From Desulfosarcinaceae bacterium (GTDB taxonomy: Bacteria > Desulfobacterota > Desulfobacteria > Desulfobacterales > Desulfosarcinaceae): a stretch of 64,000 nucleotides of DNA. The position numbers were made by a program, and so were the translations under genes. Below are positions 292 to 48,288 of this stretch, piece after piece. Each line of letters starts with the position of its first letter. The first letter of the stretch is position 1. Under the pieces are notes generated by a model. It saw only the letters and a list, made by a program, of their open reading frames with translations, was not told the DNA's origin and searched no databases. The stretch is taken from assembly GCA_030066015.1 (NCBI GenBank), contig JASJCL010000016.1, positions 24,578 to 88,577 on the forward strand. The letters run 5' to 3'.

Positions 292-1749
292 TCAGGGCGC
301 AAGGAGGATCTCGAAGCGTTCTCGCATCTGTTGGTCCACTTCGCTGGGGATATGACCGTCACCAGCCTCCGCGAGTAGCCGCTTGGCGATGGCCGTTGCA
401 CGGGTGCGGGCATCCGCGGCGCCCTCCTGGGCCCATTTCTCCCGATGCTTGCGATCGGTAACACCGTTGCCCTGAAAGTATTCGCTGCGCATATGACGCA
501 GGGTGTGGGGCGACACCATGAAGTTGCCCCCCGGTCCCACCTGATCGATCACCTCCACCGCCAGGTGCTCCGCGTCCACCGTGATGCCACGCAGCACCTT
601 ACACGCCATGCCGATGATCTCGTCGTCGATCACGTACTGCTCGGGCGCCACGGTGAGCATCGACTCGAGCATGCCGGCGCTGTGGTGCATGTAGTTGGAG
701 CCCCCCATGGCGCCCAGGAGAATGGTCATGGCCTTCTCCCAGCCGGCCTGGGCGTCGGGCAGCTTGGTGTCCGTAAGGCCGGCCGAATTGTAATTGGGCA
801 CTGCGATGTGGGCGGCCAGCTGATGAATGGCGGCGTTCATCATCCCGCACTCCACCCCGCCGCCGGTGTAGCCCATGGTGTTCATGTTGGCCATTCCCGG
901 TATGCCCCCGTAGAGCAGGGGAGCGCCCGCCCGGGTCAACTGGCAGATGGTGATGCCGGCCAATTGTTCGGCGTGGACCTGGGCCAGGGTGCCGGCCATG
1001 GTCATGGGGCTGGTGGAGCCCGACATGGGAGCCGCCGACAGGGCCACGGGGATCCCCTCGCGGTTGCAGGCCTGCAGGATGCGGGTGCTCTGGGTGCACA
1101 GCTTCAATGGGCTGATGGCGAAGCTGGTGATCACCGAGATGAAGGGTTTGGCCCGCAGGGCCTCCCGCCCGCCGGCGAGGAGGCTGGCCAGATCGATGAC
1201 GGCCGCCAGGCCGGCCTCGTCGTTGACCCCGGACATCACATGCTTGGCCGTGGCCCGCAAACAGGCGTAGAACATGTTGACATCGTAAGCCGACTCCGGG
1301 ATGTCGGTGGGGATGCAGGGCCGCAGGTAGAAGTGAATGTGGTCGAGCCGGTCCACCAGGCGTCCGAGATTATAAATATCCCGCAGCGTCGTGGGACGGA
1401 TCTCGCCGGTGTCCAGGTCGAGGATCTTGATGGCCGCGCCCCCCGTTCCGATGTGGACCTTGTCTTCGGTGAGATCCAGATCGTGGGCCCTCTTCCGTCC
1501 ATGGAGCACCACTCGTTTGGGTGCCTTGGCCAGTTGCGCCACAATCAGGTCGCGGGGAAAGGTGACGCGCGCTTTGCTGGCGTCCACGTGGGCGCCCGCT
1601 GCGGAAAGCATGTCGAGGGTCTCCTCGAGGCCCTCCTCATAGGTCATGCCGGTGCCTTCAAGTATGGACAGGGCGGCGTCGTGGATGGCGACGATCCCCG
1701 CCGGCGATAGGGGTTTGTAGATGCCGCCATTAAGGCCTTTGGAATCCAT
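292..1749 (-). CDS. MttB-superfamily (non-pyrrolysine) methyltransferase
   Basis: A 485-residue member of the trimethylamine methyltransferase (MttB) superfamily, which moves a methyl group from a tertiary or quaternary amine to a cognate corrinoid protein. The whole length aligns by eye with the amber-containing MttB at 41407-42888. At the pyrrolysine position (about residue 325, in AGLTDTK) this protein has Leu, so it belongs to the pyrrolysine-free branch that includes the glycine betaine methyltransferase MtgB. The open frame runs a further 109 codons upstream, but the extension has no family similarity. I chose the ATG at 1749, which has GGAG just upstream. It diverges from an RpiR regulator. 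With the dimethylglycine-dehydrogenase-like gene at 8569, a role in glycine betaine demethylation is plausible, but the substrate is inferred. Confidence 0.9.
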   Translation of the reverse strand: MDSKGLNGGIYKPLSPAGIVAIHDAALSILEGTGMTYEEGLEETLDMLSAAGAHVDASKARVTFPRDLIVAQLAKAPKRVVLHGRKRAHDLDLTEDKVHIGTGGAAIKILDLDTGEIRPTTLRDIYNLGRLVDRLDHIHFYLRPCIPTDIPESAYDVNMFYACLRATAKHVMSGVNDEAGLAAVIDLASLLAGGREALRAKPFISVITSFAISPLKLCTQSTRILQACNREGIPVALSAAPMSGSTSPMTMAGTLAQVHAEQLAGITICQLTRAGAPLLYGGIPGMANMNTMGYTGGGVECGMMNAAIHQLAAHIAVPNYNSAGLTDTKLPDAQAGWEKAMTILLGAMGGSNYMHHSAGMLESMLTVAPEQYVIDDEIIGMACKVLRGITVDAEHLAVEVIDQVGPGGNFMVSPHTLRHMRSEYFQGNGVTDRKHREKWAQEGAADARTRATAIAKRLLAEAGDGHIPSEVDQQMRERFEILLAP

Positions 1750-2093
1750 GCGGGCGCTCCAGAACGAGTGGTCGAGGGGGGTGTCTCCGTTGAATAAATC
1801 AAATTCATTCAATTTGAATGTTTCTGTTTCACTCTTCAGCAGTGGTGTCAACAGAAAAATCGCGTCGTGCCGTCCGAACGCGCCATTCGTCCGGTTGCCA
1901 TCAAACACGGTATGCACGACTAACCTACCTAAAAGATTCAAAACCATGCTCAATAGAAAATCCCGCCACTTGACAGCCGGGGTACAAACGGGCACACTGG
2001 AGCGTAGAAAAACAGGCCCATGGCCACTGGCAGCCGTTGGCGTCACGGGCAGGAGTGGCAGCTTAATCCCAACCAAATGATAGTTTTGATTTC
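1750..2093. promoter_or_regulatory. divergent control region, MttB homologue / RpiR
   Basis: A 344-base intergenic region between two divergent genes. It is locally AT-rich around 1790-1860, unlike its GC-rich flanks, which suggests promoters here. It holds the perfect palindrome at 1806-1820 listed separately. I did not find a convincing sigma-54 -24/-12 pair. Confidence 0.5.
1806..1820. promoter_or_regulatory. 15-bp palindrome, candidate RpiR operator
   Basis: CATTCAA-T-TTGAATG is a perfect inverted repeat with 7-base arms around one central base. It lies 57 bases upstream of the MttB-family start and within the shared control region with rpiR. RpiR/SIS regulators bind inverted repeats, often rich in TGAA/TTCA; assignment to this regulator is inferred from position only. 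Confidence 0.5.
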
Positions 2094-5940: not shown

Positions 5941-6504
5941 TCAGGACTGCCAGTACAGCACTGGCGCCTGGGGATCGACCCGCTCCAGATGGGCCAGTAG
6001 TTCATCCAGATTGGCGATAAAGGCAGCGCCCTCGCGGTTCGCACTCAGATGTTTGTGGGCTTTGGCAGCCAACTTCTCGGCGGCAGCTTGGTGACCCCAG
6101 ATGAGATGGATGTGCACCCCGGCGGCCTGAATCACCCCCTTGAGGGCACTGCGCAAGGGTTCCTCGGCCGGGTGCCAGATGGTTTCAAGGAGTTCGTGCA
6201 CCTCAAAATAGAGCCCCACGTTCCACAGCACCAAGGCCTGGCGAATGGGCGCGCGCACATCATCCGCCGCAAACTGCTCAAACGCCTGGCGATAGCGTCG
6301 CAGGCGACCGTTGAGGTAATCGCGATAGACACCCCCCATATCCACCGCTTCCCAGTGTTCGCAGAACAGATGAAAGGCCTGGACGTCGTTGCGCAGCGCC
6401 ACCTCGACGAATTGTTCCGACAAGGTGTTGCGCAGATCACGGCTTTGGCGGTCGTTGAAAGGGTCGAAGCCCCTCCCGGGGGTCAGTGGTTCGTCATCGG
6501 TCAT
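5941..6504 (-). CDS. DUF309 domain protein
   Basis: A 187-residue soluble, helical protein. The central part (about residues 88-140) matches DUF309: WNVGLYFEVHELLETIW followed by ALKGVIQAAG and a His/Trp-rich helix. The FxxHExLE pattern is the family signature and might bind metal, but no function is established. The ATG at 6504 has GGAGGACGGC upstream. It is the first leftward gene before the rubredoxin-like/adenosyltransferase/reductase set, with a gap of 106 bases, so it may be the first gene of that operon. Confidence 0.8.
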   Translation of the reverse strand: MTDDEPLTPGRGFDPFNDRQSRDLRNTLSEQFVEVALRNDVQAFHLFCEHWEAVDMGGVYRDYLNGRLRRYRQAFEQFAADDVRAPIRQALVLWNVGLYFEVHELLETIWHPAEEPLRSALKGVIQAAGVHIHLIWGHQAAAEKLAAKAHKHLSANREGAAFIANLDELLAHLERVDPQAPVLYWQS

Positions 6505-6760
6505 GCCGTCCTCCAGAAGCGGTGCAAGCGGGTTGCGGCAAGGGTCGCTCGTCTGAACGGCGAACCCGTGGAAGGAAAGATTCTTGACCTGCTCTGCAGG
6601 CCGGTGCCATTATGAACTGCTCGATTGGACGAAAACCGGAACCAACCGCGTCGGTGATCGCAAGGTCCCCTAGTGTCCCAGGCAATCAAGCGGCTCAGCG
6701 GACCGCTGCGAACCAGCCGGCAGCCATCTGCGCGTATGGATCATTGATCGATATATTGCA
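6505..6760. other. divergent intergenic region
   Basis: A 256-base region between the DUF309 gene and the sigma-54 activator. A possible weak sigma-70 pair toward the activator is TTGACC with CATTAT 18 bases on (about 6587-6616). An AT-rich patch of about 20 bases precedes the activator start. Nothing else stands out. Confidence 0.3.
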
Positions 6761-8568: not shown

Positions 8569-11016
8569 ATGTCATCGCCCATCCCCACTCAGGCCCAGGT
8601 CGTCGTCATCGGCGGCGGGATCGTCGGTTGCTCCACCGCCTATCACCTGACGAAAGTCGGCTTCACCGATGTCGTGCTGCTGGAGCGCAAGGAGATCGCC
8701 TCGGGCACCACCTGGGCGGCGGCCGGGCTCCTGGCCCAGCTGCGCCAAAATCAGGAGATGACCAACCTGGCCAAGTATGCCCTGGAATGCTACGGCCGAC
8801 TGGAGGAGGAGACTGGTGTGGCCACGGGCTTCAAGATGAACGGCGCCATCGGCGTCTGCCAGACCGAGGACCGCCGCCGTGAGTGGCTGCGCGGGGCCGC
8901 CATGGCGGCCAATTTCGGTGTGGAGATGGTCGAGATCAGCATGAAGGAAGCCGAGGAGATGGTTCCCGGCATGGCCACCGACGACCTGGTGGCGGCCTTC
9001 TATCTGCCCAATGACGGTATCACCGATCCGGTGGGCACAGCCCAGGCCCTGGCCAGGGGCGCCAAGATGGGTGGGGCCCAGATCATCGAAGGGGTCAAGG
9101 TCACCGGCATCCAGGTGGAGAAGGGAGTGATCACGGGTGTCAGCACCGACCAGGGCGATATCAAAGCCGAATATGTGGTGGCCTGCGCCGGCATGTGGAG
9201 CCGAGCCCTGGGCCAGAAGATCGGTGTCAGCCTGCCGCTGCTGGCCGCCGAGCACATGCACGCCATCACCCTGCCCATCGAGGGGCTCAAGAAAAGCTTC
9301 CCCACCGTGCGGGATTTCGACGGTTACTCCTACTTCAAAGAGGAGTCGGGCGGCATCCTGCTCGGTGGATTCGAACCCGTGGCCAAGCCCTGGGGCATGG
9401 ACGGCATTCCCGAAGAGTTCAAGTTCAGCGAACTGAGCGAGGACTGGGACCAGTTCGAGCTCTTCCTCGAGTGCGGCTTCAAACGCTTCCCCGTCCTGGA
9501 GACCGCCCAGATCCGCCACCTCTCGGTCGTGCCGGAAAGCTTCACGCCGGACAACGCTTTCATGATCGGTGAGGCCCCCGGGGTGAAGAACTTCTTCGTG
9601 GGCTGCGGCATGAACTCGGTGGGCATCGCCGGTGCGGCCGGTGTTGGCCGGGCTCTGTCCCAGTGGGTGGCCCAGGGTTATCCTGAAGAGCAGCTCTGGC
9701 CGGTGGATGTGCGCCGCTGGTTCCCCTGGCAGCAGAACATCCACTACCTGGAGAAACGCATCACCGAATCGGTCGGCATCCTGTATGAACACCACTATCC
9801 CAATCGCCAGCGCACCACCGCCCGCCCGGTGATCATGAGCCCCATCCACGACCGCCTCAGAGAGAACGGTGCCGCCTTCAGCATGATCGCCGGCTGGGAA
9901 CGGGCCGACTGGTTCGCCCCCACAGGAGTGGCGCCGGTTCACGAATACGACTGGCACCATCCCAACTGGTTCGAATACCAGGGGGTTGAACACATGGCCG
10001 TGCGCGACAGTGTCGGCATGTATGACCTGTCCAGCATGGGCAAGTACATCGTCCAGGGCAGGGACGCCGGCAAGCTCCTCCAGCAGCTCTGTTCCAACAA
10101 CATCGACGTCCCCGTGGGCACGGTGGTCTACACCCCCATCCTCAATGAAAAGGGCGGTTTTGAATCCGACCTGACCGTCACCCGCATCAGCGACGAGGAG
10201 TACTTCCTGGTCACCGCCGCCGGCACCACCGTGCGCGACTACGACTTCATCAAACGCCGCATCCCGGAAGACGCCGTCTGCACCATCACCGACGTCACCC
10301 ATGGCTACAGCATGCTGGCCGTCATGGGACCCAATTCCCGCAAGCTCCTGGCCACCCTCACCAAGGAGAACCTCAGCAACGAGGCCTTCCCCTACGCCAC
10401 GGGCAAGTTCATGGATGTGGCCATGGCGCGCCCCCTGGCGATCCGCATCTCTTATGTGGGCGAACTTGGCTGGGAGCTCTACATTCCCACCATGTTCACC
10501 CAGGCGGTCTTCGACGCCATCATGGAAGCCGGCAAGGCCTTTGACCTCAAGCTGGTGGGCATGCAGGCGGTCAACTCCCTGCGCCTGGAGACCGGCTACC
10601 GTCATTGGGAGACCGACATCACCCCCGAAGACACCCCCTACGAGGCCGGTCTGGGCTTCGGTGTCAAGCTCGATAAAGGGGTGTTTACCGGCCGCGATGC
10701 TCTGGTCGCCCAAAAGGCGGCCGGCCCTCTGACCAAACGGATGGCCATGTTCGTCCTCGAGGAGATCGAACCGCGGCTCTACGCCAACGAACCCGTCTAC
10801 CGCGACGGCCAGGTGGTGGGCCAGATCACTAGCGGCGCCTTTGGCTACAAGGTGGGCGCACCGGTGGGAATGGGCTATCTGCACAACGCCGACGGCGTGG
10901 ATGCCCAATGGATCGCTTCCGGAAAGTTCGAAATTATGGTAGAGGGAAAGCTTGTTCCAGCCAAGGCCTCTCTGCGTTCTCCCTACGATCCCCGGAACGA
11001 ACGCACCAAGATGTAG
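8569..11016 (+). CDS. dimethylglycine/sarcosine dehydrogenase-like FAD-GcvT fusion
   Basis: An 815-residue enzyme with an N-terminal DAO-type FAD domain (VVVIGGGIVGCSTAYHL at about residues 9-25) and a C-terminal folate-binding GcvT-like half (from about 430; it includes RLETGYRHWETDITP). This is the layout of dimethylglycine and sarcosine dehydrogenases, which oxidise an N-methyl group, pass the carbon to tetrahydrofolate and reduce ETF. In the mammalian enzymes the FAD-linked His sits in STWHAAG; here the motif is TTWAAAG with Ala50, so covalent FAD attachment by that residue is absent. The ATG at 8569 follows AGAAGGAG. etfB and etfA follow directly, and the sigma-54 promoter at 8431 precedes it. 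Whether dimethylglycine, sarcosine or another amine is the substrate is not decided by sequence. Confidence 0.88.
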   Translation: MSSPIPTQAQVVVIGGGIVGCSTAYHLTKVGFTDVVLLERKEIASGTTWAAAGLLAQLRQNQEMTNLAKYALECYGRLEEETGVATGFKMNGAIGVCQTEDRRREWLRGAAMAANFGVEMVEISMKEAEEMVPGMATDDLVAAFYLPNDGITDPVGTAQALARGAKMGGAQIIEGVKVTGIQVEKGVITGVSTDQGDIKAEYVVACAGMWSRALGQKIGVSLPLLAAEHMHAITLPIEGLKKSFPTVRDFDGYSYFKEESGGILLGGFEPVAKPWGMDGIPEEFKFSELSEDWDQFELFLECGFKRFPVLETAQIRHLSVVPESFTPDNAFMIGEAPGVKNFFVGCGMNSVGIAGAAGVGRALSQWVAQGYPEEQLWPVDVRRWFPWQQNIHYLEKRITESVGILYEHHYPNRQRTTARPVIMSPIHDRLRENGAAFSMIAGWERADWFAPTGVAPVHEYDWHHPNWFEYQGVEHMAVRDSVGMYDLSSMGKYIVQGRDAGKLLQQLCSNNIDVPVGTVVYTPILNEKGGFESDLTVTRISDEEYFLVTAAGTTVRDYDFIKRRIPEDAVCTITDVTHGYSMLAVMGPNSRKLLATLTKENLSNEAFPYATGKFMDVAMARPLAIRISYVGELGWELYIPTMFTQAVFDAIMEAGKAFDLKLVGMQAVNSLRLETGYRHWETDITPEDTPYEAGLGFGVKLDKGVFTGRDALVAQKAAGPLTKRMAMFVLEEIEPRLYANEPVYRDGQVVGQITSGAFGYKVGAPVGMGYLHNADGVDAQWIASGKFEIMVEGKLVPAKASLRSPYDPRNERTKM

Positions 11017-11123: not shown

Positions 11124-11915
11124 GTGAATATCATTGTACTCGTCAAGCAGGTACCGGACACCGAGTCACTGCTGGAGGTGGACACCGCCAACGCCACCGT
11201 GAATACCCAGAACGTCAAGTGGATCATCAACCCCTATGATGAATACGCCATTGAAGAGGCGCTCCAGATAAAGGAGGCCAAGGGAGCGGGCAGCGTTACG
11301 GTCGTGGCTGTGGGCCCGGATCGCAGCGAACAGGCCCTGCGCACTGCCCTGGCCATGGGCGCAGACACCGCCGTCCTGGTGAACGATGCGGCCGCCGAGG
11401 GCAGCGACGCCCTGGGCATCGCCAAGGTGCTGGCCGGCGTCATTAAAGAGATGCCGTACGACCTGGTCATCGCCGGCGTGCGGGCGGTGGACGACGATGG
11501 CTACCAGGTCCCCGCCGCCGTGGCCGAATACCTGGAGCTGCCGCTGGTGACCGCCGTCATAAAACAGGAGCTGGGAGAGGGCAAAATCACCTGCCACCAG
11601 CTGGTGGAGGGCGGCAGCCTCGTGGTGGAAGCGCCCCTGCCCATGCTCTTCACTGCCCAAAAGGGGCTCAACGAACCGCGCTACGCCTCCTTGCCCAACA
11701 TCATGAAGGCCAAGAAAAAGCCCCTTGAGAAGAAGCGCCTGGCCGACATCGGTCTGGATGCCGCTTTGGTCGGCACCGGCAGCGCCAAAGTCGCCATCTC
11801 CGCCCTGGCCCTGCCCCCCGAGCGTAAAGGGGGCAAGATGGTGACCGGCGACACGCCCGAGGCCCTGGCCGCCGAGTTGGTGCGGCTGCTAAAGGAAGAG
11901 GCCGAAGTTTTATAG
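11124..11915 (+). CDS. etfB: electron transfer flavoprotein beta subunit
   Basis: A 263-residue ETF beta subunit (normal length 250-265). It begins with MNIIVLVKQVPDT, has INPYDEYAIEEAL, and carries the AMP-site pattern AGVRAVDDDGYQVPAAVAEYL at about residues 116-136. It forms the heterodimer with EtfA and accepts electrons from the upstream dehydrogenase for transfer to ETF:quinone oxidoreductase or another membrane acceptor. It has a good ribosome binding site (CAGGAG) before the ATG. It sits 107 bases after the dehydrogenase and 103 bases before etfA, consistent with one operon. Confidence 0.95.
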   Translation: MNIIVLVKQVPDTESLLEVDTANATVNTQNVKWIINPYDEYAIEEALQIKEAKGAGSVTVVAVGPDRSEQALRTALAMGADTAVLVNDAAAEGSDALGIAKVLAGVIKEMPYDLVIAGVRAVDDDGYQVPAAVAEYLELPLVTAVIKQELGEGKITCHQLVEGGSLVVEAPLPMLFTAQKGLNEPRYASLPNIMKAKKKPLEKKRLADIGLDAALVGTGSAKVAISALALPPERKGGKMVTGDTPEALAAELVRLLKEEAEVL

Positions 11916-12018: not shown

Positions 12019-12987
12019 ATGGCTTCAGGCGTATTTGTGTTTGCGGAACAAGTGGACAATGGTTTCAAGAAGAGTACCCTCGAGGCGGTGAGCGAAGGCC
12101 GCCGGCTGGCCGACGCCCTGGGTGAGCCCCTCTGCGCCATGGTGATGGGCGGCGGGATCGCTGAATTGGCGGGCGGGCTGGGCACTTACGGCGTGGACAA
12201 GGTGCTGGCGTCCGACGACACGGCCCTGATCGATTTTGCCGCGGATGCCTACACCCAGACCCTCCACCAGGCGATCCAGGAGATGGGCCCCCGGGTGGTC
12301 CTTGCCGCAGCCACGGTGACCGGCAAGGAGCTATTCGCCCGTCTGGCCGCCAAACTGGACACCGGCCTGGCCATGGAGTGCAGCGACTTGGCCATGGATG
12401 GCGATGCGCTCAGTGCCAAACGCAGCCTCTACGGTGGAAAGGTGATCGCCACCGTCACGGTCCAGGGAAGCCCCATGCTGGCCACCCTGCGGCCCAATGT
12501 TTCAGATGTGGTAGAAGCACCCAAGACGGCCGAGGTGGTCAGCATGGCGCCCGTCACCAGCGGGGGCCGCACCCAGGTGGTGGACAAGCAGTTGGAGAGC
12601 GGCGGGAAGGTCGAACTCACCGAGGCCAATTTCGTCGTCTCCGGCGGCCGCGGCATGGGCGGCCCGGATTATAGCCTCCTGGAAGAGCTGGCCAAATCTC
12701 TGGGTGGCGCCGTGGGGGCCTCGCGCAACGCCGTGGACGAAGGCTGGCGCCCGGTATCCGATCAGGTGGGCCAGACCGGCAAGGTGGTCTCGCCGAAAGT
12801 ATACTTCGCCTGTGGCATCAGCGGCGCCATCCAACATGTGGCCGGCATCCGTACCTCCGACGTCATTGTGGCGATCAATAAGGACGATGACGCTCCCATC
12901 TTCCGCATCGCCGACTACGGCGTCAAGGGGGACCTCAACGAGGTGGTCCCCGCCATCATCGCGGAGGTGAAGAAGTTGAAGGGATAG
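12019..12987 (+). CDS. etfA: electron transfer flavoprotein alpha subunit
   Basis: A 322-residue ETF alpha subunit with the C-terminal FAD domain: VSGGRGMGG (about residues 210-218), the SRNAVDEGW segment, [20 protein letters not shown] (about 253-272) and the [11 protein letters not shown] turn (about 290-300). It holds the FAD that takes electrons from the dehydrogenase. There is no N-terminal ferredoxin domain of the kind seen in some anaerobic EtfA proteins. The reading frame ends in TAG, 31 bases before a clear terminator, which marks the end of the dehydrogenase-ETF operon. Confidence 0.95.
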
Positions 12988-16914: not shown

Positions 16915-18597
16915 ATGCAACTGACAAGAATGCGGTTGAAACTCACACCGGAGGAGCTGCCGGAGGCGTATGCCAAGCTTTCAGAGAGCGACATGGAGCG
17001 GCTCTGCCGGTTCGGCAAGAAAAGGTCGTATCAGGCCGGTGAGGCGCTGTTCAGCGAGGGGCAGAAACAGGCCTCGATGCATGCCCTTATCTCCGGCAGG
17101 ATCGGCATATACCAGCATATCGGCCGCGGAGATGCAGAGCAGATCGCCGAGATCACCCCGGGCATGTTTACCGGTGATGTGTCCATGATGTCGGGCAGGG
17201 CGACGGTTGCGGAAGGCAGATGCCTGGAGCCCTCCGAGGTGATCGAGGTTCCCTTTGGTCAGCTCAAGCGGCTCCTGGTTGAGGACTCGTATTTAAGCGA
17301 TATTATCGTTTCCGCCTACATCAAACGCAGAGCGGCATTGTCCTCCAAAGGGCTGTCATCGATTCAGCTCCTCGGATCACGCTATGCCAAGGACACAGCC
17401 CGCATACGTGAGTTTCTGACGCGCAATGCACTGCCGTATAACTTCATCGATCTCGAATCTGGCGCGGATTACCGATCTCTCCTGCAGGCAATTGAGGTAC
17501 CGGAAGCCGAGACACCGGTCATGGTGTATAAGGGCAGCGAAATCCTGAAGAACCCTTCGAACGAGACCATCGCCAACAAGCTTGGCGTCAGCTGCCTAGA
17601 GGAAGAGGAGCTGCTCTATGATGTAGCGGTGGTTGGCTCGGGACCGGCCGGTCTGGCGGCGTCCGTAAACGCCGCCTCGGACGGGCTCTCCGTCATCAAC
17701 ATCGATGCGGCGGGGCCCGGGGGGCAGGCGGGCAGCAGTTCGAAGATTGAGAACTATCTCGGGTTTCCCATGGGCATCTCCGGTCAGGAACTGGCCAACC
17801 GGGCGATGGTGCAGGCCCAGAAATTCGGCGTGCTCATGGTCGCACCGCAGATGGTGAACCGGCTGGAAAAAGCGGGCGATACCTATCATTTGGCCCTGGC
17901 CAATCGTAAAACCGTGCAAGCCCGTTCTGTGGTCCTCGCACTGGGTGCCAAATACCATCGTCTGGCCATCGACAACATCGGTGATTTCGAAGGGTCCAGC
18001 ATCCACTTCAACGCCACCGGTATGGAGGCGCAGCTCTGTCGTGACGAGGATGTGGCGATTGTCGGCGCCGGCAACTCAGCCGGACAGGCAGCCGTGTTCC
18101 TGTCGGAAAGCTGCCGCCATGTCTACCTTGTCGTCCGCAAAGACAACCTGGTCTATAAAATGTCCAATTATCTGATCCGTCGTATTGAAGACCGGGAAAA
18201 CATCACCGTGCTGACCCAAAGCGAAGTCACCGCCCTTTCCGGCCGGGACGGGATGCTCGACAGCATCGACATCTCCGATAACCGGAGCGGGCAGACAACG
18301 ACCAGAGGGATTCATCATCTCTTTCTCTTCTTGGGCGCCAAGCCGTTGACCGATTGGCTGGAGGGCACCCTGTCACTCGATACCAAGGGATTTATCAAAA
18401 CCGGGCTCGATCTCGAACCGATAGACCTTGTGCGGGCGCAGTGGAATCTCAACCGCATGCCGAGCGTGTTTGAAACGACCTGGCCACGGGTCTATGCCGT
18501 GGGGGATGTGCGCAGCGGTTCGTCCAAGCGGGTCGCCGCAGCCGTCGGCGAGGGCTCCATGACCATCGGCCTCGCCTTTCGCGCGCTCAATGAATAG
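16915..18597 (+). CDS. cNMP-binding / thioredoxin-reductase-like fusion lacking CxxC
   Basis: A 560-residue fusion. Residues about 1-125 form a cyclic-nucleotide-binding fold, 150-220 resemble a glutaredoxin/thioredoxin fold (LLGSRYAKDTARIREFL) without its active cysteines, and 235-555 are a thioredoxin-reductase-type flavoprotein with GSGPAGLAASVNA for FAD, GAGNSAGQAAVF for NAD(P)H and AVGDVRSGS at the C-terminal FAD site. Where thioredoxin reductase has its redox CxxC (about residue 368) this protein has FNATGMEAQLC, so it cannot reduce thioredoxin in the usual way. This is a known but poorly studied subfamily. It stands alone, flanked by gene-poor DNA. The acceptor is unknown. Confidence 0.88.
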   Translation: MQLTRMRLKLTPEELPEAYAKLSESDMERLCRFGKKRSYQAGEALFSEGQKQASMHALISGRIGIYQHIGRGDAEQIAEITPGMFTGDVSMMSGRATVAEGRCLEPSEVIEVPFGQLKRLLVEDSYLSDIIVSAYIKRRAALSSKGLSSIQLLGSRYAKDTARIREFLTRNALPYNFIDLESGADYRSLLQAIEVPEAETPVMVYKGSEILKNPSNETIANKLGVSCLEEEELLYDVAVVGSGPAGLAASVNAASDGLSVINIDAAGPGGQAGSSSKIENYLGFPMGISGQELANRAMVQAQKFGVLMVAPQMVNRLEKAGDTYHLALANRKTVQARSVVLALGAKYHRLAIDNIGDFEGSSIHFNATGMEAQLCRDEDVAIVGAGNSAGQAAVFLSESCRHVYLVVRKDNLVYKMSNYLIRRIEDRENITVLTQSEVTALSGRDGMLDSIDISDNRSGQTTTRGIHHLFLFLGAKPLTDWLEGTLSLDTKGFIKTGLDLEPIDLVRAQWNLNRMPSVFETTWPRVYAVGDVRSGSSKRVAAAVGEGSMTIGLAFRALNE

Positions 18598-39884: not shown

Positions 39885-40991
39885 CTATTTACCCAGCACC
39901 TGCTCCATCTTCTCTCTGGCGCTTGGCGTCACCCAAGCGTGCCAGATTTTCGGATACTCGCGGAAGAAATAGCGGGCGATATCGGTCCAAGATTCGGCAT
40001 TGGACAGTCGGCTGCGCAGCAGCAGCTCGTTGAGGATCTCGGTGTCGAGGTGTAAACGATCCAATACGGCGAGGATCGCCGGCGCCCGGTCGGCCAGTTT
40101 GTGGTGCACCAGTTTATGACCGCTGCCGGGCTCGTATTGGCAGGCCGCGCTCAGCGGCCGCAGCGTGGCATCCTCGGCAGCCGCCAGGACCTCCCCCCAC
40201 ACATCGGGCGAGTGGGGTGGCTCGGCCAAGATCTGCCACTGGTACAGAGCCATCATGGCGTTGGGGTTCCAATAGTAGCCAAAGACAGGAATCTGTTTCA
40301 ATTGTGCGTTCTCGAAGGCGGCCTCCAGCGCCTCGGGCGAGCTGGGACTGACGGCATTGTAGAACTTGTCCAGACCGTAGGCTTCGAGTTTGATGCGATT
40401 GATCTCGAGACAGGTCCAGCCAATGATGCAATTGAAGAAGACGCCTTTGGTGGGGTCCTCGGGATCCTGAAAGAGGCGCCAATGGTCTTTCATGTCGGCC
40501 ACGGAATCGATCTGGTAGCGCTGGGCCACCCAACTGGGGATCATCCAAAACTCCTGGCCCTCACCATACATGGGCCCCAGATCGATAATGGTGCCGCGGG
40601 CGGTTTCACGCTCCAGCCACGCGTGGTTGCTGGTGGTCCAGGCCTCCAGGGTGATGTCCAGCTCCCCACTGACCAGCATCCGCTGAACTTCCTTCGTGGT
40701 CAGATCGATGCGTTCCACCCGGTAGCCATACCCCGTTTCAAAGATAAAGGCAGCAATGGCATTGTTGATCTGGAGGGCGTCGATCTGGTCGTCGTGCAGT
40801 CGCAGTTCCGGGGGCGTTCGTTGGAGCCAGCCGGTGTCGCAGGCGATGAGCAGCGCCAGCGTCAGCAGCCAAATCAGGCGCGTTCGGCGGCGATGCCACG
40901 GGGGGACGGGTGGCACCGCTGGCCTGCACGCACAAGGGGCGTCTCGGCCGGGAAGGGCGCTATGGCGGGAAGCATTCTGCAGGATAGCCAC
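39885..40991 (-). CDS. OpuAC-type (glycine betaine-like) binding lipoprotein
   Basis: A protein of up to 368 residues whose body is an OpuAC/ProX-type substrate-binding domain (GYGYRVERIDLTTKEVQRML, LEAWTTSN and many Trp/Tyr residues typical of quaternary-amine cages). A hydrophobic segment ending LLIAC is a lipobox, so it is probably anchored to the membrane after cleavage. The long N-terminal tail is doubtful: GTG at 40916 would give a normal 25-residue lipoprotein signal, but no start has a strong ribosome binding site. No ABC permease or ATPase accompanies it; it heads an operon of kinases and a regulator, so it likely works as a ligand presenter for sensing rather than uptake. Confidence 0.85.
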   Translation of the reverse strand: MAILQNASRHSALPGRDAPCACRPAVPPVPPWHRRRTRLIWLLTLALLIACDTGWLQRTPPELRLHDDQIDALQINNAIAAFIFETGYGYRVERIDLTTKEVQRMLVSGELDITLEAWTTSNHAWLERETARGTIIDLGPMYGEGQEFWMIPSWVAQRYQIDSVADMKDHWRLFQDPEDPTKGVFFNCIIGWTCLEINRIKLEAYGLDKFYNAVSPSSPEALEAAFENAQLKQIPVFGYYWNPNAMMALYQWQILAEPPHSPDVWGEVLAAAEDATLRPLSAACQYEPGSGHKLVHHKLADRAPAILAVLDRLHLDTEILNELLLRSRLSNAESWTDIARYFFREYPKIWHAWVTPSAREKMEQVLGK

Positions 40992-41406: not shown

Positions 41407-42888
41407 TCACCTCTCGGAGCGTGGCACCGCCATCTCGGCCTCCATCTGGTTTACGATGGACCGCATCTCGGCACGCACTTCGTCCGACAGCGGCGTCGGT
41501 TTATGGTTGCTGATAATGTCCTGGGCCTTTTCAAGCGCGCGCGTGTGCATCTCCTTGGCGCCGTCGCCCGCCCATTGGTCGCGCACACGGCGGTCGATAA
41601 TCTTGGGCTGGGAAGTTTCCCGCATATGGTTCAAGGTATGACGTTCGGTCAGGAACTGATTAAAGGGCCCTACCTTTGAAATCACGTCCACTGCCAGGGT
41701 CTCGTCGTTGACGGGAATCCCGCCCACCACATGCTTGATCATTGCGGCGAACTCATTGTCCATGACCAGCTGCCCGTAGTCGAAGGTGACGCCGGATTCG
41801 AGCATCCCCAGACCGTAGATCAGGTTGGCACCTGCCAACGCCGTCATAAGGCCTGAAAGCGTCTTCTCGTGGGCAGCTTGGCCGTCGGGGGCTTTGCTGT
41901 CCGCCTACCCACCGGCGACCCAGCTGGGCAGCCCGTAGTAGTTGGAGAGGTTGGCCACCCCGGCATTGATCATGCCCGTCTCAGGGGCCCCTACCGACGC
42001 GATGGTGGTCTTGAGATCCAGGGGGCAGGTGGAGCTGCCGTACATCATGGGCGTCCCCTTGCGGGTGAGCTGCCCCAGGGTGATGCCGGCGAGAACTTCG
42101 GCGTTGTGCACCACCAGGGTGCCGGCCAGGGTCACCGGTGCGGTGGCGCCGGCCAAGGCCTGGGTGAGAACATTGACCATCACTCCGGCGCGGGCGCCCT
42201 CAATGATCACCTCGGTACAGTCACGCACCAGCTTCAGCGGGCTGATGGGGCAGGTGTTGAACGAGATGATGGGCCGTTCACGGAGCTTGTCATGCCCACC
42301 GACAATGGCAGCGGCCATATCGATCGTCGCCCGCATGAGGCGCCCATTGCCGGCCCCGTGGAAGCAGTGCTTGGTGGTGTTGCTGAGAAATGCCTCGGCG
42401 TTGTGCAGGGGCTGGACCTCTTGGGGCACGTCGTGGGCACCCATGGCACGTTCGTAGACGTCGATGCCGTCCAGGGCGTCGACCATCACGGCGCTGTCGG
42501 CCACATCCTGCTTGATGGTTTCGCGTAGCTCCCCGGAGTTGAGATCAAACACCATGATCCCCTCTCCGAAGTTGGTGAATCCGACACGGTTTTTCTCCAC
42601 GACGAAGTCGTGTTTGGGATCCCTGCCGGCGAGCAGCACCTTTCCCGGGGCGGAGCGGATGGCGTCCTCCACGAGATAAGGAGGGATTTTCACCACCTTG
42701 GTTACCGGATCGACGCTGGCACCACCACCGGCCAGGATCTCCCGGGCCTCTTCATCTTCAAAGAATACCCCGGTTTTCTGCAGTACTTCCAGGGTAGCGC
42801 TGTGGATGGCGTCAAGCTCGTCGTCCGTAAACAGGTTCAGACGTAATCCCCCGCTCTGCAGGAATCCTGCATACAGGTTGCGTTTCAC
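41407..42888 (-). CDS. mttB: trimethylamine methyltransferase MttB with in-frame amber (pyrrolysine) codon
   Basis: Read through one TAG at 41905-41907 this is a 493-residue MttB, the usual length (about 495). MttB transfers a methyl group from trimethylamine to its corrinoid protein, using pyrrolysine in the active site. The TAG is codon 328, in the context VAGG-O-ADSKAPDGQ; M. barkeri MttB has pyrrolysine at residue 334 in the same setting, and the two paralogues in this window have Leu at the aligned position (GLTDTK, ALTDAK). Sequence similarity runs without a break in the same frame on both sides, and the final stop is TGA. The start is GTG at 42888 with GGAGG 7 bases upstream. It is the last gene of the six-gene transport and methyltransfer operon. 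A standard-code reading splits it into two false ORFs. Confidence 0.93.
41905..41907 (-). other. amber codon read as pyrrolysine (codon 328 of mttB)
   Basis: The single in-frame TAG of mttB. The downstream frame continues for 165 codons with full MttB similarity, including GMLESGVTFDYGQLVMDNE, with no ATG or ribosome binding site placed to restart translation immediately after the TAG. Confidence 0.88.
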
Positions 42889-43022: not shown

Positions 43023-44456
43023 TCAGGTATGCGTCTGCACATAGCGGTCTAAATCGGCTTCCAAATCGGGCGAGAGCACCGTCTCGGGACAGGCGGCGAG
43101 TCGTTCTTGATATACCCTGTGCGCCTGCTCCACGGCCAGCAGGCGCCCCTCCGCCTCCCATTGGTCGTATGAGCCCCAGTGGGAGACCGTTGGCTGCCAG
43201 GCATCACGGCAGTGCTGGACGGTCTCGGGCAGCATCAGAAAAGATCCCCCGTGGCCCACCTGCTTGATGGCGTCGACGGAAAGCGCCGCCTCCGAGGTAT
43301 CCATCCCCTTCTCGATGGTCAGCAGGCGGGAGAGCATCTCCTCGTCGAGGATGAATTTCTCGAAGGAGACGGTCATGATGGAATCGAGGATCCCCAGACA
43401 CTCGTTGACCATGTTGACCCCCGAGGCCAGGAGCATGAAGAGGTTCTGCATGGTTTCAAGCCCGGCCTGGCAGTCCACTCGCTTGGCATCGGTCAGTGCG
43501 GCCATGGCGCGGGTGGGCAGATCGTAAAGTTCGTCAGCCAGTTGAATGCCGGCGATGTTGATCAGGTTGGACTCCGGCGATCCGCCGATGTAAGCAGCCC
43601 GGCGCATGTTGGGCACCGCCGAGGCGGGAGAGTAGATAAAGGGCGTGCCGGGATTGACCAGTTGGGTCAGGACCAAGCCCGCCAGGATCTCCACATTCTG
43701 GAGCAGCACCGTCCCCATGAGGCGCACCGGCGCGGTCACCCCGCTCATGGCGCAGGTAAGCACCTTGACGGGCTGGCGTCGGCGGGCGAAGGCGATGAGG
43801 GTCTCACAGGGCGACTGATCGTAGATCAGCGGGCTGAGCGGATTGACCGAGACCCCCAGGAGCGATTTGTGCTGAAAGATATCTTCGCCAGCCCCGTGGG
43901 CGATACGCACCATTTCGAACATGTGATCCAGCTCCGCCGGCGCGTCGACCCAGCCGAAGAGGGGCTTGTCCGTACTGCGCAGCAGGGCCTGCAGGATCTT
44001 GAGACTGAGGCCGGCCGAGGCCATGTCACTGGGGGCTATCGGGATCTGCCCCACAATGGTGCAGACCTCGCTGGAGTGGGCCAGGCGGTAGAGGTCGATC
44101 AGGTCCTCCCAGGTGCCCAAGCGACGCCCCTTGTCCTTATCCTCCATGTAGATGGGGCCGTTGTTGAAGGCCACATGGGTGCGCTGCTGACGGCGGCCCA
44201 GGCGAATGGTCCTGGCCGGATCGCGCCCATGCCAGCGGAAGCTCTTGGGGGCGGTTTCGAGGGCGCTTTCGAGCATCTCCTCCGGAATGTAGACAATCTT
44301 GTCGTCCGCCTTGGCCCCATGGGCCTTGAAGATCTCCACTGCTTCCGGGCACTCGAACTTGATCCCCAGGGTTTCCAGCAGATGGATGGTGTTGTTGTGG
44401 ATGTCGTGCAGGTCGTTGCGATCAAAAACTTTGAGCTTGGAAATGATGCCCGCCAT
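43023..44456 (-). CDS. MttB-superfamily (non-pyrrolysine) methyltransferase
   Basis: A 477-residue member of the MttB superfamily without an amber codon; Leu occupies the pyrrolysine position (AALTDAKRVDCQAG). It differs strongly from the other two copies, so the three likely serve different amines. The ATG at 44456 has AAGGAG upstream; the frame to 44483 is a short spurious extension. It is the fifth gene of the operon, 134 bases upstream of the amber-containing mttB and 125 bases after the ABC permease, so the compound brought in by the transporter is likely its substrate. The corrinoid protein it needs is not encoded in the window. Confidence 0.9.
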   Translation of the reverse strand: MAGIISKLKVFDRNDLHDIHNNTIHLLETLGIKFECPEAVEIFKAHGAKADDKIVYIPEEMLESALETAPKSFRWHGRDPARTIRLGRRQQRTHVAFNNGPIYMEDKDKGRRLGTWEDLIDLYRLAHSSEVCTIVGQIPIAPSDMASAGLSLKILQALLRSTDKPLFGWVDAPAELDHMFEMVRIAHGAGEDIFQHKSLLGVSVNPLSPLIYDQSPCETLIAFARRRQPVKVLTCAMSGVTAPVRLMGTVLLQNVEILAGLVLTQLVNPGTPFIYSPASAVPNMRRAAYIGGSPESNLINIAGIQLADELYDLPTRAMAALTDAKRVDCQAGLETMQNLFMLLASGVNMVNECLGILDSIMTVSFEKFILDEEMLSRLLTIEKGMDTSEAALSVDAIKQVGHGGSFLMLPETVQHCRDAWQPTVSHWGSYDQWEAEGRLLAVEQAHRVYQERLAACPETVLSPDLEADLDRYVQTHT

Positions 44457-44581: not shown

Positions 44582-45445
44582 TTACGTTTTTCCCTTCCAG
44601 GGGATCAGCTTGTCTTCCAATAAGCGCATGATCATATCGAAGCCATACCCCACGATGCCCATGACGATGACGCCCATGATGACGATATCGGTGCGCAGGT
44701 ACCGCGCGGCGTTGAGCACCATCCAGCCCAGTCCGGCGGTGGCGGCCACCATCTCGGCGGCCACCAGGGTGGCCCAGCAGACCCCCATACTGACGCGCAT
44801 ACCGGTGAAGATCTCCGGCAGGGCATTTACCAAGATCACATGCCGCAGCACCTGCCAGCGGTTGGCGCCTAGGCTGTAGGCGGCGTGAATCTTCTCCACG
44901 GACACGCTCTTCACCCCCGAGCGGGCGTTGATCACCATGATGGCGAAGGTGGCCAAAAAGAGGAGCATGATCTTTCCGCCGTCGCCGATTCCCATCCAGA
45001 TGATGATGATGGGGATGTAGGCCAAGGGGGGCACCGGGCGGTAGAGCTCGATGATGGGGTCGAAGAGGCCGCGCACGACGCTGCTCAATCCCATGGCGAT
45101 GCCCAGCAGGACGCCGCAGATGGTACCCAGCAGAAAGCCGGCCATCACCCGGTAGAGGCTGATGAGAAAATGGCCCAGCAGGGTGTGTCCGCGGTAGCCC
45201 TCGGTGGCGATGGTCCAGAATTTCTCCAGCACCGCCAAGGGGGAGGGCCAGAAAAGGGGCGGCACGATCTCCAGCTCGCAGAGCACCACCCAGGCGGTCA
45301 GGATGATGATCAGGCTGAGGACACTCCATTTGCGCCCCTGACCGGCGGCGGAGGGGTCGCCGAACTTGACGGTCTTCTTCTTTTCGAAGTCGTCTTCGGC
45401 GGCGAATCCCAGAAAGTTTTTGAACTTGGTAAGGGCGGCCTCCAT
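44582..45445 (-). CDS. ABC permease, SsuC/TauC type
   Basis: A 287-residue inner-membrane permease with about six helices and the EAA-type cytoplasmic loop IHAAYSLGANRWQVLRHVILVNALPEIFTG (near 185-215) that contacts the ATPases. It belongs to the nitrate/sulfonate/taurine group. ATG at 45445 follows GGAGGTG. It is the only permease in the operon, so the channel is probably a homodimer; with two unlike ATPase genes nearby, it would sit above a mixed ATPase pair. Placement beside two MttB genes suggests that a methylated amine is the cargo. Confidence 0.92.
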   Translation of the reverse strand: MEAALTKFKNFLGFAAEDDFEKKKTVKFGDPSAAGQGRKWSVLSLIIILTAWVVLCELEIVPPLFWPSPLAVLEKFWTIATEGYRGHTLLGHFLISLYRVMAGFLLGTICGVLLGIAMGLSSVVRGLFDPIIELYRPVPPLAYIPIIIIWMGIGDGGKIMLLFLATFAIMVINARSGVKSVSVEKIHAAYSLGANRWQVLRHVILVNALPEIFTGMRVSMGVCWATLVAAEMVAATAGLGWMVLNAARYLRTDIVIMGVIVMGIVGYGFDMIMRLLEDKLIPWKGKT

Positions 45446-45481
45446 AATGTGTGCACCTCCGGTCGTTGGCGTTAATCGAAG

Positions 45482-46258
45482 TTAAATGATGTGTCGAATC
45501 AGTGTCTGCCGCATCTCCCGGAACGCCGGCAGGTGACGAACCGCCTCCATCCCCTCGGTGGCGGCCAGCTCGAAGAAAGGGACCGCAACCGATGTGCGCA
45601 GGCGCCCCGGCCGTCCGCCGAGGATGTACACCTGCGCCGCCATGGTGAGGGCCGCTTCGACGTCACTGGTGGCCGTGAGCAGCATCGGTTTCTTGTCCTG
45701 CCACAATTGGAGCAGTATTTTTTGGAGCTTGAGACGGAAGCGGTCGTTGATCTCGTTGAGCGGTTCGTCCCCGATGAGGACGATTTCCGGTTCGGTGACC
45801 AGGCAGCGGGCGAAGCTGATCAGGATCAGGTGGTGATAGTCTTCGATGCGATAAACCCGTTGGGTGGCCAGGCGCGTGAGATGGAATCGTTCCAGGTACT
45901 CCGCCACCCGCGCCTTGCGCTCTCTGCGCGGCACCTTGCGATTTTTCAACCCGAACTCGACATTCTCGGTGACCGACAGCCAGGGATACAGGCTGCTCTG
46001 GTGAAACACCATGCCGCGCTGGGTGGCGGGCCCGTCCACCGGAATACCCCGCCACAACACCCGGCCCGAGGTGGGGTGATCCACTCCAGCGACGAGGCGC
46101 AGCAGGGTCTGGATCCCGGAACCAGGTACCCCCAACACCGCCGCAGTGTCGCCAGCCGCCATGGTCAAGTCAATTTCGCTCAAGTCGCCCCGGCGGCGCA
46201 GGGGGGCCTTCTCTTCAGGATAGGTAAAACTGACCTGCTGCAGTTCGAGCATCTTCAT
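45482..46258 (-). CDS. ABC ATPase-like protein with degenerate nucleotide site
   Basis: A 258-residue ABC ATPase homologue of the SsuB/TauB type whose ATP site is ruined. At the Walker A position it has GVPGSGIQT (residues 43-51), so the invariant Lys is Ile49 and the next Ser/Thr is Gln50. The LSGGQ signature is replaced by YRIEDYHHL, and the switch His by Ser (TATSDVEAA). Walker B keeps GDEP. The frame is intact with normal codon use, so it is maintained, not decaying. A canonical ATPase is encoded two genes upstream; the pair may form a heterodimer with one working and one degenerate site, or this protein may regulate the transporter. Confidence 0.85.
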   Translation of the reverse strand: MKMLELQQVSFTYPEEKAPLRRRGDLSEIDLTMAAGDTAAVLGVPGSGIQTLLRLVAGVDHPTSGRVLWRGIPVDGPATQRGMVFHQSSLYPWLSVTENVEFGLKNRKVPRRERKARVAEYLERFHLTRLATQRVYRIEDYHHLILISFARCLVTEPEIVLIGDEPLNEINDRFRLKLQKILLQLWQDKKPMLLTATSDVEAALTMAAQVYILGGRPGRLRTSVAVPFFELAATEGMEAVRHLPAFREMRQTLIRHII

Positions 46259-46359
46259 CCGGAATGGCTCCTGAGATCTGAATTTCGGTAGCGGTCAGAG
46301 AAGCGCGGCGGTCCGATCGCCGTCACCGCCGCGCTCGGATACAGGACGCGTCGCTAACG

Positions 46360-47373
46360 TTAGTTCACCTTCTCCATGAAGCTGGCATCGATGAACTGGC
46401 CGTAATCATCCTTGGCCTTGTCCAAAGCGCCCTGCTTGACGAGAAAGTCGGCAATCTTCTTGAGGTTGCCCACGATGGCGCCGGGCTTGCCGCTGGTGCC
46501 CATCCAATCCATGCCGAGCTGAGTGTCCTTCTGGTAGAAGCCCATGGAGCTCATGATCTCCTTGGTCTTTTCGGGCGTGATACCGGCCATTTTGCCGATG
46601 TCGGCGTAGGTAACCTCCGGGGTCTCGTGGTAGACCTTGGTGGAATCGTTCATCACCTTGAGGAACTTGACCAGCAGGTCGGCATCGTTTGCGGCAAACT
46701 TTTCGGTGACCGCCACAATGCCGTAAGTGGAGTAGCCCCAGCGGATCTGGTCTTCCGAGGAGACCAGGATGCGCCCGCCCTTCTCCATCATCTGGGAGAC
46801 GGCCGGTTCCCAGGCGCAACCGGCGTCGATATCCTTACGGATGAAGGCTGGCAAAATATCGGGGTTGGAGAGATCGAGGATCTTGAGCTGATCTTCTTGG
46901 ATCCCGAAGGTTTCCAAAATGCCCATGAAGCGATAGTGGGCCGTGGTACCGAAGGGGACGCCAACGGTCTTGCCGATGAGGCCACGGGGGGAGAGAACGC
47001 CGATATCGCCGCGGGCCACGAGGTTTTCAGACTCGCTGTAGTTCTCGGAGATGGCCACCATCTTCAAGGGCAGCCCCTGGGTGACGGCGATGGTGAATGG
47101 CGTGGTGCCCAGCGCGTAGGCGATGGAGACATCGCCGGAGGCCATGGCGGTGGTCATCTCGGCACCCGAGCCAAACTCTCTGAAGTTGACCTTTATACCC
47201 ATCTCCTTTTCAAACATCCCCTTGGCCCAGCCATATTCGAAGGTCCCCGGCCAGCCCGGAAAATAGGCAACGGTGATCTTCTTGGTTTTGGCCAGGGCCG
47301 GAGCGGCCATCATCACCATTCCAACGGTAAACGCTACGACTGCCACAATCGCCATCAGTTTACGAACCTGCAT
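46360..47373 (-). CDS. ABC periplasmic binding protein, taurine/sulfonate type
   Basis: A 337-residue periplasmic binding protein (NMT1/TauA-like) with a signal peptide (residues 1-28, cut after ALA) and then ITVAYFPGWPGTFEYGWAKGMFEKEMG, FGSGAEMTTAMASGDVSIAYALG and NPDILPAFIRKDIDAGCAWEP. These are ligand-cleft segments of the TauA/SsuA group. Many aromatic residues (FPGWPGTF, YGW, CAWEP) would suit a quaternary amine as well as a sulfonate. ATG at 47373 has GAGGAGG upstream. It is the second gene of the operon. Confidence 0.9.
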   Translation of the reverse strand: MQVRKLMAIVAVVAFTVGMVMMAAPALAKTKKITVAYFPGWPGTFEYGWAKGMFEKEMGIKVNFREFGSGAEMTTAMASGDVSIAYALGTTPFTIAVTQGLPLKMVAISENYSESENLVARGDIGVLSPRGLIGKTVGVPFGTTAHYRFMGILETFGIQEDQLKILDLSNPDILPAFIRKDIDAGCAWEPAVSQMMEKGGRILVSSEDQIRWGYSTYGIVAVTEKFAANDADLLVKFLKVMNDSTKVYHETPEVTYADIGKMAGITPEKTKEIMSSMGFYQKDTQLGMDWMGTSGKPGAIVGNLKKIADFLVKQGALDKAKDDYGQFIDASFMEKVN

Positions 47374-47472
47374 GTGCTCCTCCTCAAGTTGGGTGCGTTT
47401 TACGGCTACCGTCCGTGCCCGCGATGCGGGGCGCCGTCGGCATTGGGTTTCGATAAAATGCGGCCACGGCCG

Positions 47473-48288
47473 TCATCCGGCGTGGGCCGCGGTTTCCTCC
47501 TCCATGCTCCAGATGAGGCTCAACACTTCCTCGCGGATCTTGATAAACTCCGGATCGGATTTGAGCTCACGGGGATCCTTTTCCAGACCCTTGTGGCAGA
47601 AATCCAGCTTGTAGCGCTTCATGATCTTGCCGGGGCGGGCCGACATGACGAAGAGGTCGGTGGCCAAGTAGATCGCCTCCTCCACACTGTGGGTGATGAA
47701 GAAAACCATTTTGCCGGTCTCCTTCCAGATCTTCAGAATCAGGGTCTGCATCTTCTCGCGGGTCAGTGCGTCCAGGGCGCCTAGGGGCTCGTCCATCAGC
47801 AAGATCGATGGGTTGTTGGCCAGACAGCGCACGATGGCCACACGCTGCTGCATGCCGCCCGAAAGGTTGTAGATGGGGGTGTCGACAAAATCGGTCAGGC
47901 CGACCAGGTCGAGGTAGTTCATCACGCGTTCGTGGCGTTTGGCCTCATCCACGCCCCGCATTTTGAGGCCGAAGACGGAATTTTCGTAGACGGTCAGCCA
48001 CTCGAATAGGGCCCCTTTTTGGAACACGACGCCGCGTTCGGCACCTGGTTTTTCGATCTCCTCGCCGTTGAGCAGAATTCGCCCGCTCGTGGGCGCCAGA
48101 AATCCCGCGATGGTGCTGAGCAGGGTGGTCTTGCCACAGCCCGATGGCCCCACCACCACGACGAGGTTGCCCTCATCCATGTTGAAGTTGATGTCCTCCA
48201 GTGCGTGGACATCCTGGCCATCCTCCGTGTGATAGGTCATGCAGAGGTTTTCGACGCGCAGTTCGCTGTGGCTGTTTGGGGTACTCAC
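47473..48288 (-). CDS. ABC ATPase, SsuB/TauB type (canonical)
   Basis: A 271-residue ATPase with all catalytic motifs: GPSGCGKTT (Walker A), NLSGGMQQRVAIVRCL (signature), ILLMDEPLGALD (Walker B) and FFITHSVEEA (switch His). I start it at GTG 48288, where AAGGAGG stands 5-6 bases upstream; the open frame to 48552 is an artefact crossing the promoter region. It is the first gene of the six-gene methylamine operon and sits behind the sigma-54-type promoter at 48409. It would energise the adjacent permease, perhaps paired with the degenerate ATPase-like protein. Confidence 0.92.
   Translation of the reverse strand: MSTPNSHSELRVENLCMTYHTEDGQDVHALEDINFNMDEGNLVVVVGPSGCGKTTLLSTIAGFLAPTSGRILLNGEEIEKPGAERGVVFQKGALFEWLTVYENSVFGLKMRGVDEAKRHERVMNYLDLVGLTDFVDTPIYNLSGGMQQRVAIVRCLANNPSILLMDEPLGALDALTREKMQTLILKIWKETGKMVFFITHSVEEAIYLATDLFVMSARPGKIMKRYKLDFCHKGLEKDPRELKSDPEFIKIREEVLSLIWSMEEETAAHAG

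Follow-up and report, generated by a model that had tools for sequence, protein, structure and literature searches.

The closest described counterparts of the gene studied here are the pyrrolysine-containing (Pyl) MttB proteins of M. barkeri and marine Deltaproteobacteria, which share its family, the site of the residue and its context. The MttB of Deltaproteobacteria-bbl, for example, has its amber codon at position 327 of 485, and is accompanied by a split pylS and a pyl gene set (PMC8318568). Pyl decoding in MttB is of an already known kind, and the apparently new part is a hairpin within mttB, downstream of the UAG.

Cis elements have been discussed for related cases. The PYLIS of methanogen mtmB was likewise proposed to act in cis downstream of a Pyl UAG, but is a larger structure in another gene; its covariance is limited, and its replacement lowered readthrough without abolishing it, and it has been reported to be dispensable (PMC2933860). 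The bacterial SECIS is similar in being an in-frame hairpin past a recoded stop codon, within the coding sequence (PMC8211752). It differs in lying immediately 3' of the UGA and in being bound by SelB, whereas the mttB hairpin begins 65 nt away. We know of no dedicated Pyl decoding factor with a role like that of SelB. A 2013 survey, in its accessible text, did not find a structure shared by mttB genes (PMC3639795), and the accessible parts of a 2021 review state that no cis signal has been found and leave open how all stops escape recoding (PMC8211752). Published work cited in such articles found a cis element not to be required in E. coli or for MtmB (PMC8211752; PMC2933860). In the portions of the open-access literature that were available, no earlier description of a hairpin at nt 69–84 of mttB (numbering begins at the U of the UAG) was recognised.

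The mttB Gene and Its In-Frame TAG

The window, meaning the whole stretch of 64,000 nt that was analysed, comes from a draft genome of a Desulfosarcinaceae bacterium. Its Pyl-type mttB gene (41407..42888, minus strand) has a GTG start, 493 codons when the TAG is counted as sense, and a terminal TGA. The translation consists of 327 residues, the TAG, 165 residues and the TGA, just as in the preliminary description, which had seen a pair of minus-strand ORFs joined by one TAG and with MttB similarity on both sides. The in-frame TAG is codon 328 (41905..41907, minus strand), a predicted Pyl codon, and a single MTTB domain (PF06253, 312 bits, residues 16–486 of 493) runs across it unbroken. Residues 2–483 could be aligned to the solved trimethylamine methyltransferase chains 7xcm and 7xcl with 429 bits, compared to 261 bits for a chain named glycine betaine methyltransferase, and the TAG falls on residue x of the motif PSYVAG-x-SDAK in 7xcm/7xcl. 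Two non-Pyl MttB paralogues in the window, both on the minus strand, have Leu in this column, as had been claimed, specified by CTG in one (43023..44456) and CTT in the other (292..1917). Directly downstream of mttB is a TAG-ended gene for an OpuAC-type substrate-binding protein (39885..40916, minus strand), and upstream are ABC transporter genes specifying a permease, an ATPase, an NMT1-like binding protein and another ATPase (44582..48288, minus strand).

Among 120 listed homologues, 58 are N-terminal pieces truncated at the TAG site, 54 of them called at exactly 327 aa, which puts the position of the TAG beyond chance. Such calls would also be expected if the TAG were a genuine stop or had arisen by nonsense mutation or misassembly, leaving a 327-residue piece or a pseudogene. 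That reading is extremely improbable, given that 99 distinct mttB genes share a TAG at this position, that similarity and coding potential persist for 165 codons past it, and that all of the pyl genes are found in the genome (see below). The remaining 62 homologues run the full length. At the Pyl site they have Leu (17), Trp (14), His (12), some other residue (14) or a gap (5), and none of the 62 has Lys. Across 291 genomes of the same order, all matches of ≥48% identity, among those listed, have the internal TAG, and a separate listing includes one match at 51% identity that lacks the TAG, with one TGA instead (G312:C191:777-2177). In a group of full-length homologues with 56–63% identity (P0004–P0014), the residue at the Pyl site is Trp, or in one case Ala. 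If the Trp codon is TGG, it is one base away from TAG, possibly pointing to a loss of Pyl. An mttB-like frame in another genome (L279; G294/G135, C155:19648-21081; 38% identity) contains two in-frame TAGs.

Pyrrolysine Genes Elsewhere in the Genome

The preliminary description had proposed that TAG is decoded as Pyl, and had named pylT, a split pylS and pylBCD as the genes to look for in the rest of the genome. All are present, as a complete cassette in the order pylT-pylSc-pylB-pylC-pylD-pylSn on contig C86 of the same draft genome, within locus L028 (C86:1-20000), and the proposal is supported. The five proteins, PylSc (L028:6530-7366), PylB (L028:7495-8607), PylC (L028:8595-9791), PylD (L028:9788-10669) and PylSn (L028:10662-11009), score over their NCBIfam cut-offs, and pylT (L028:6422-6495) was identified by ARAGORN as tRNA-Pyl with the anticodon cta. 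Described hallmarks of tRNA-Pyl are the CUA anticodon, a lengthened anticodon stem and a single base between the acceptor and D stems (PMC8318568), and this pylT has all three: in its fold, the anticodon stem is 7 bp long and a single base is left unpaired behind the acceptor stem. It is near certain, from the gene and the cassette, that codon 328 would be decoded as pyrrolysine, with the products of the six cassette genes predicted to carry this out.

The genome has six Pyl genes, four TAG-bearing mttB and two TAG-bearing mtbB, and this number in one genome sets it apart from the described systems of M. barkeri and marine Deltaproteobacteria. Besides the window gene, two mttB and one mtbB are on C86, the fourth mttB is on C27, and the second mtbB is on C81, where it is followed by the sole corrinoid protein in the genome scoring over the TIGR02370 cut-off. 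MtmB was not found in the genome. No TIGR02370 match was detected on the window's contig, a further difference from the known systems, so the window MttB would need a corrinoid protein encoded elsewhere. It may be supposed that the enzyme demethylates trimethylamine and passes the methyl group to such a protein, and use of trimethylamine by the host is likewise suggested by its gene content. The MttB family has 26 matches in this genome; four have the TAG, 21 have a sense codon and one is truncated. That 22 lack the TAG suggests many methylated-amine substrates. The presence of dsrA (595 bits) makes sulfate reduction likely, and the host is likely to be a sulfate reducer. On contig C91, a 624-residue frame (L168, complement ~5960-7800) ends in a corrinoid domain scoring 182 bits, below the TIGR02370 cut-off; its first part is presumably a look-alike of MtaA/MtbA-type methyltransferases, and the whole is perhaps a second methyltransferase fused to a corrinoid protein.

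Within the order, a TAG-mttB match was found in at least 39 of 291 genomes (read by hand from at most five scored matches per genome) and PylSn in 34. The two occur together in 31 genomes, TAG-mttB alone in eight, PylSn alone in three and neither in 249 (Fisher p 6e-31). A counterpoint to the decoding explanation is offered by the eight TAG-only genomes, since PylSc is over the cut-off in one (G183) and not in the other seven; six of the latter are 65–91% complete, and G008, which is 96% complete, has a weak PylSc match. One of these six, which consists of a single contig (G151, 84% complete), has three TAG mttB and two matches to the hairpin pattern described below, but neither PylSn nor PylSc over the cut-off.

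TAG as an Ordinary Stop Codon

The preliminary description had also stated that TAG ends several genes near mttB, and had concluded that either the decoding is selective or readthrough of these genes is tolerated. The TAG ends are confirmed for a DAO/GCV_T gene (8569-11016), two genes with electron transfer flavoprotein domains (11124-11915 and 12037-12987) and a further gene (16930-18597). A rough coding-potential caller, run over 552,865 bases of the genome, predicted 361 genes, ending in TGA (169), TAG (98) or TAA (94), and with the six Pyl sites removed, ordinary TAG stops account for 92 of 355 (26%), which bears out the earlier inference. A comparable value, 21% UAG stops, has been described for an archaeal lineage, as in Pyl-using bacteria (PMC9723677), and in the accessible text of the articles concerned, the avoidance of misreading at UAG stops is described as unexplained (PMC9723677; PMC8211752).

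Back-up stops within ten codons show no excess after TAG (20/85) compared to TGA (39/160) or TAA (18/80), in counts from which 36 of the 361 calls had first been dropped as having a coding-like downstream frame. Terminal TAGs are found even on two of the six Pyl genes of this genome, and 28 Pyl mttB of relatives (L081–L109) show no avoidance of terminal TAG, ending in TGA (11), TAG (10) or TAA (7), with the window gene making 29 in all; the pattern used for this count passed over L098, L099, L101 and L103, where GQ precedes the TAG. Since TAG is common as a stop, back-ups are not enriched and two of the Pyl genes are themselves TAG-ended, TAG must function as both sense and stop in the same cell, which has either to discriminate between the two or to tolerate readthrough. 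An example is provided by a 3-kb region of C86 (L029:4899-7970), where the sense TAG of an mttB is followed by a terminal TAG, and the same frame continues into an mtbB 39 codons later that has its own sense TAG. Of the three TAGs in this open frame, presumably two are sense and one is a stop; if all of them were read as sense, MttB and MtbB would become a single fusion protein.

Some further ideas were considered and set aside. The pylSc and pylB genes of this genome end in TAG (L028:7364-7366 and L028:8605-8607), as pylB of methanogens has been reported to do (PMC2933860), which raised the idea of self-limitation; in raw counts, TAG ends 13/35 pylSc and 12/27 pylB loci versus 3/24 for pylC and 3/23 for pylD. 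Five other TAG-joined coding frames in the sampled bases were examined as additional Pyl genes, but are most simply taken as adjacent genes, since different families flank each TAG (FIST / histidine kinase, aconitase large / small domain, WYL / CN_hydrolase, PGM / MFS, and DUF4389 / cupin); the aconitase pair is probably of this kind too. Another TAG-joined pair (L028:18860-19987) proved to be two permease genes.

A Conserved Hairpin Downstream of the UAG

The hairpin of the window gene, GUUGGC-AGGU-GCCAAC, occupies nt 69–84 from the U of the UAG (41824..41839, minus strand; an exact pattern match at C23:66401-66416). It starts 65 nt past the UAG and has six pairs, 69–84 through 74–79, with a loop at nt 75–78. 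The consensus at these positions in most Pyl-type mttB is R-UUGGC-AGGN-GCCAA-Y. When 31 Pyl mttB are aligned starting at the TAG, TTGGCAGGNGCCAA is near-invariant at third codon positions, and on this alignment RNAalifold recovered the same hairpin unprompted, plus three weaker pairs closer to the UAG. When the pairing partners were slid against each other, 98% of cells were paired in the true register and 24–56% in the shifted ones.

A larger comparison used 169 mttB, or 161 (99 TAG and 62 non-TAG) after strict removal of duplicates. Synonymous codon choice was scanned over 251 columns, with the expectation taken from each gene's own codon usage. In the Pyl genes, synonymous choice deviates most from expectation at codons 351 and 352: TTG at codon 351 was observed in 85/94 cases against 14.0 expected (z 21.0), and GCA at codon 352 in 83/92 against 14.7 (z 20.2). 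The next column had a z of 10.3, codons 350 and 354 reached 8.1 each, and the 95th percentile was 6.2; among non-Pyl genes the highest z was 4.2. Third-position changes on the tree numbered four at codon 351 and eight at codon 352, compared to a median of 36 over 36 columns (both included).

The first base of the hairpin is the third base of the Ala350 codon and the last is the third base of the Asn355 codon, so the protein imposes no constraint on the closing pair, 69–84. Of the 94 genes that have Ala at codon 350 and Asn at codon 355, 79 are paired here, the states being GC 48, AT 27, GT 4, AC 1, TT 6, TC 4 and CC 4. Where the hairpin 8-mer (see below) is present they are GC 46, AT 24, GT 1, TT 5, TC 1 and AC 0, and the association of A/G with T/C is strong (Fisher p 5e-18); in non-Pyl genes, 9/25 are paired and the association is absent (p 0.52). 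Among 635 pairs of conserved third positions lying 3–12 codons apart, 69–84 ranked first by three measures: excess pairing, where its lead was slight (0.164 vs 0.158), mutual information, where the lead was wide (0.59, the next being 0.29), and changes on the same branch (10 vs 1.8 expected, 8 of which keep the pair). Joint-state parsimony, on a tree built without codons 345–360, gave eight GC to AT switches and one AT to GC. In the 31-sequence alignment, the closing pair is the only one of the six that varies on both sides, so the other five rest on conservation; the innermost pair, 74–79, is broken in 20 of the 99 Pyl mttB. These data provide good support for a conserved, covarying structure downstream of the Pyl UAG in most Pyl-type mttB.

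Covariation of this kind would fit a palindromic DNA site, e.g., an operator inside the gene, as well as it does an RNA stem, and the loop letters AGG are also conserved. The distance from the TAG is fixed across several phyla and the element is confined to TAG-bearing genes, and the closing pair is GT four times and AC once; a DNA site is very unlikely. The mtbB counterpart described below has G.U pairs in the sense strand, making it a poor DNA palindrome, and also speaks against this explanation.

The hairpin is not universal. The 8-mer TTGGCAGG occurs in 79/99 Pyl mttB, and is missing from 20, versus 0/62 non-Pyl genes, and the 14-mer in 69/99 versus 0/62. Before duplicate removal, and with phyla assigned as in the sequence records, the 8-mer was present in Desulfobacterota (24/27), further members of the order (30/31), Actinomycetota/Thermoleophilia (17/18), the single archaeon (1/1), Bacillota (4/18) and the host genome itself (5/6 rows, representing four genes, some twice). 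In this genome the 14-mer is present in three of the four Pyl mttB; the exception, on C27, has ATGGCAGGCACCAAC, in which pairs are broken. The idea that the share of TAG stops explains why some lineages lack the hairpin was unsupported by rough shares (Desulfobacterota 27/115, Bacillota 22/120, Actinomycetota/Thermoleophilia 15/83, archaea 4/65).

A genome-wide search of the order with the pattern RTTGGCAGGNGCCAAY gave 83 matches in 39 of 291 genomes, and the reversed control pattern one match in each of two genomes. The end states of the 83 matches were GC 43, AT 36, GT 4 and AC 0. The TAG-mttB list includes 34 of these 39 genomes, and a further five genomes on the list have no match to the pattern. 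In the host genome, both exact matches are inside mttB (the window gene and one C86 copy). The five matching genomes that are off the list (G067, G076, G089, G169 and G243) have one match each and no listed TAG mttB or PylSn.

A similar hairpin, GCCGG-AGAY-CUGGU, is present in mtbB. Among 24 distinct mtbB, GGA at nt 79–81 is found in all 24 (5.2 expected) and CTG at nt 85–87 in 22 (9.3 expected), and a pair formed by third codon positions is intact in 24/24 (C-G 20, A-U 2, U-G 2). The mttB and mtbB elements share a stem of 5–6 bp, an AGRN loop and a nearly equal distance from the UAG. The largest synonymous anomaly of mtbB is elsewhere: the Leu codon right before the sense TAG is TTG in 21/24 genes against 3.4 expected (e.g., L151:1152-1157), and may represent a second context signal.

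The mtbB hairpin is already known, being part of the Rfam model PYLIS_2 (RF02509), which has a hairpin with the loop AGAU at nt 81–84, the same place and loop type as in the mtbB of this genome. PYLIS_2 is a model of mtbB, and its counterpart in mttB is missing from PYLIS_3 (RF02510), the mttB model. PYLIS_3 matches the same 100 nt of the window gene (41808..41907, minus strand, 71.6 bits), and all four Pyl mttB of the genome are over its cut-off, but its consensus structure lacks the hairpin at nt 69–84. It also scores 45.5 bits, against a cut-off of 38, on a non-Pyl mttB of the window (675-777, minus strand), so a PYLIS_3 match alone is no proof of recoding.

Role of the Hairpin and Conclusions

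Given its position and conservation, the hairpin may promote decoding of the UAG. Taken together, the reading that we consider probable is that TAG 328 is read as pyrrolysine by means of the cassette, and that the 6-bp hairpin 65 nt downstream is likely to favour sense reading, in which case it would act in cis to tilt the UAG toward decoding over termination. The main points against a role for the hairpin are that many Bacillota mttB do not have it and that it lies far from the UAG. Its frequent absence in Bacillota would be expected if the outcome simply reflected tRNA-Pyl competing with release factor 1, timed by pyl expression, with the hairpin serving some other purpose in the mRNA, e.g., stability or pausing while the protein folds; terminal TAGs are also frequent and back-up stops give no protection. 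Reviews, in the parts that were available, see no need for a cis element and describe trimethylamine-dependent code expansion in Acetohalobium (PMC8211752; PMC2933860). Against this reading stand the restriction of the 8-mer to TAG-bearing mttB (79/99 vs 0/62) and a similar hairpin at a similar distance in mtbB, a second TAG-bearing family, and it is considered rather unlikely.

To return to the hairpin as an aid to sense reading, it could be proposed more broadly that a hairpin with an AGRN loop ~65–75 nt past the UAG, common to mttB and mtbB, marks sense UAGs among Desulfobacterota and Actinomycetota, as well as in at least one archaeon, in cells that end many of their genes in UAG, a generalisation for which the chances appear about even. 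The mttB hairpin is a defined element of 16 nt, with covariation at purely synonymous positions, and sense and terminal UAGs occur in one natural message, so that the question of how sense and stop UAGs are told apart becomes open to a simple reporter test. The hairpin could also inform the choice of amber-codon context in genetic code expansion.
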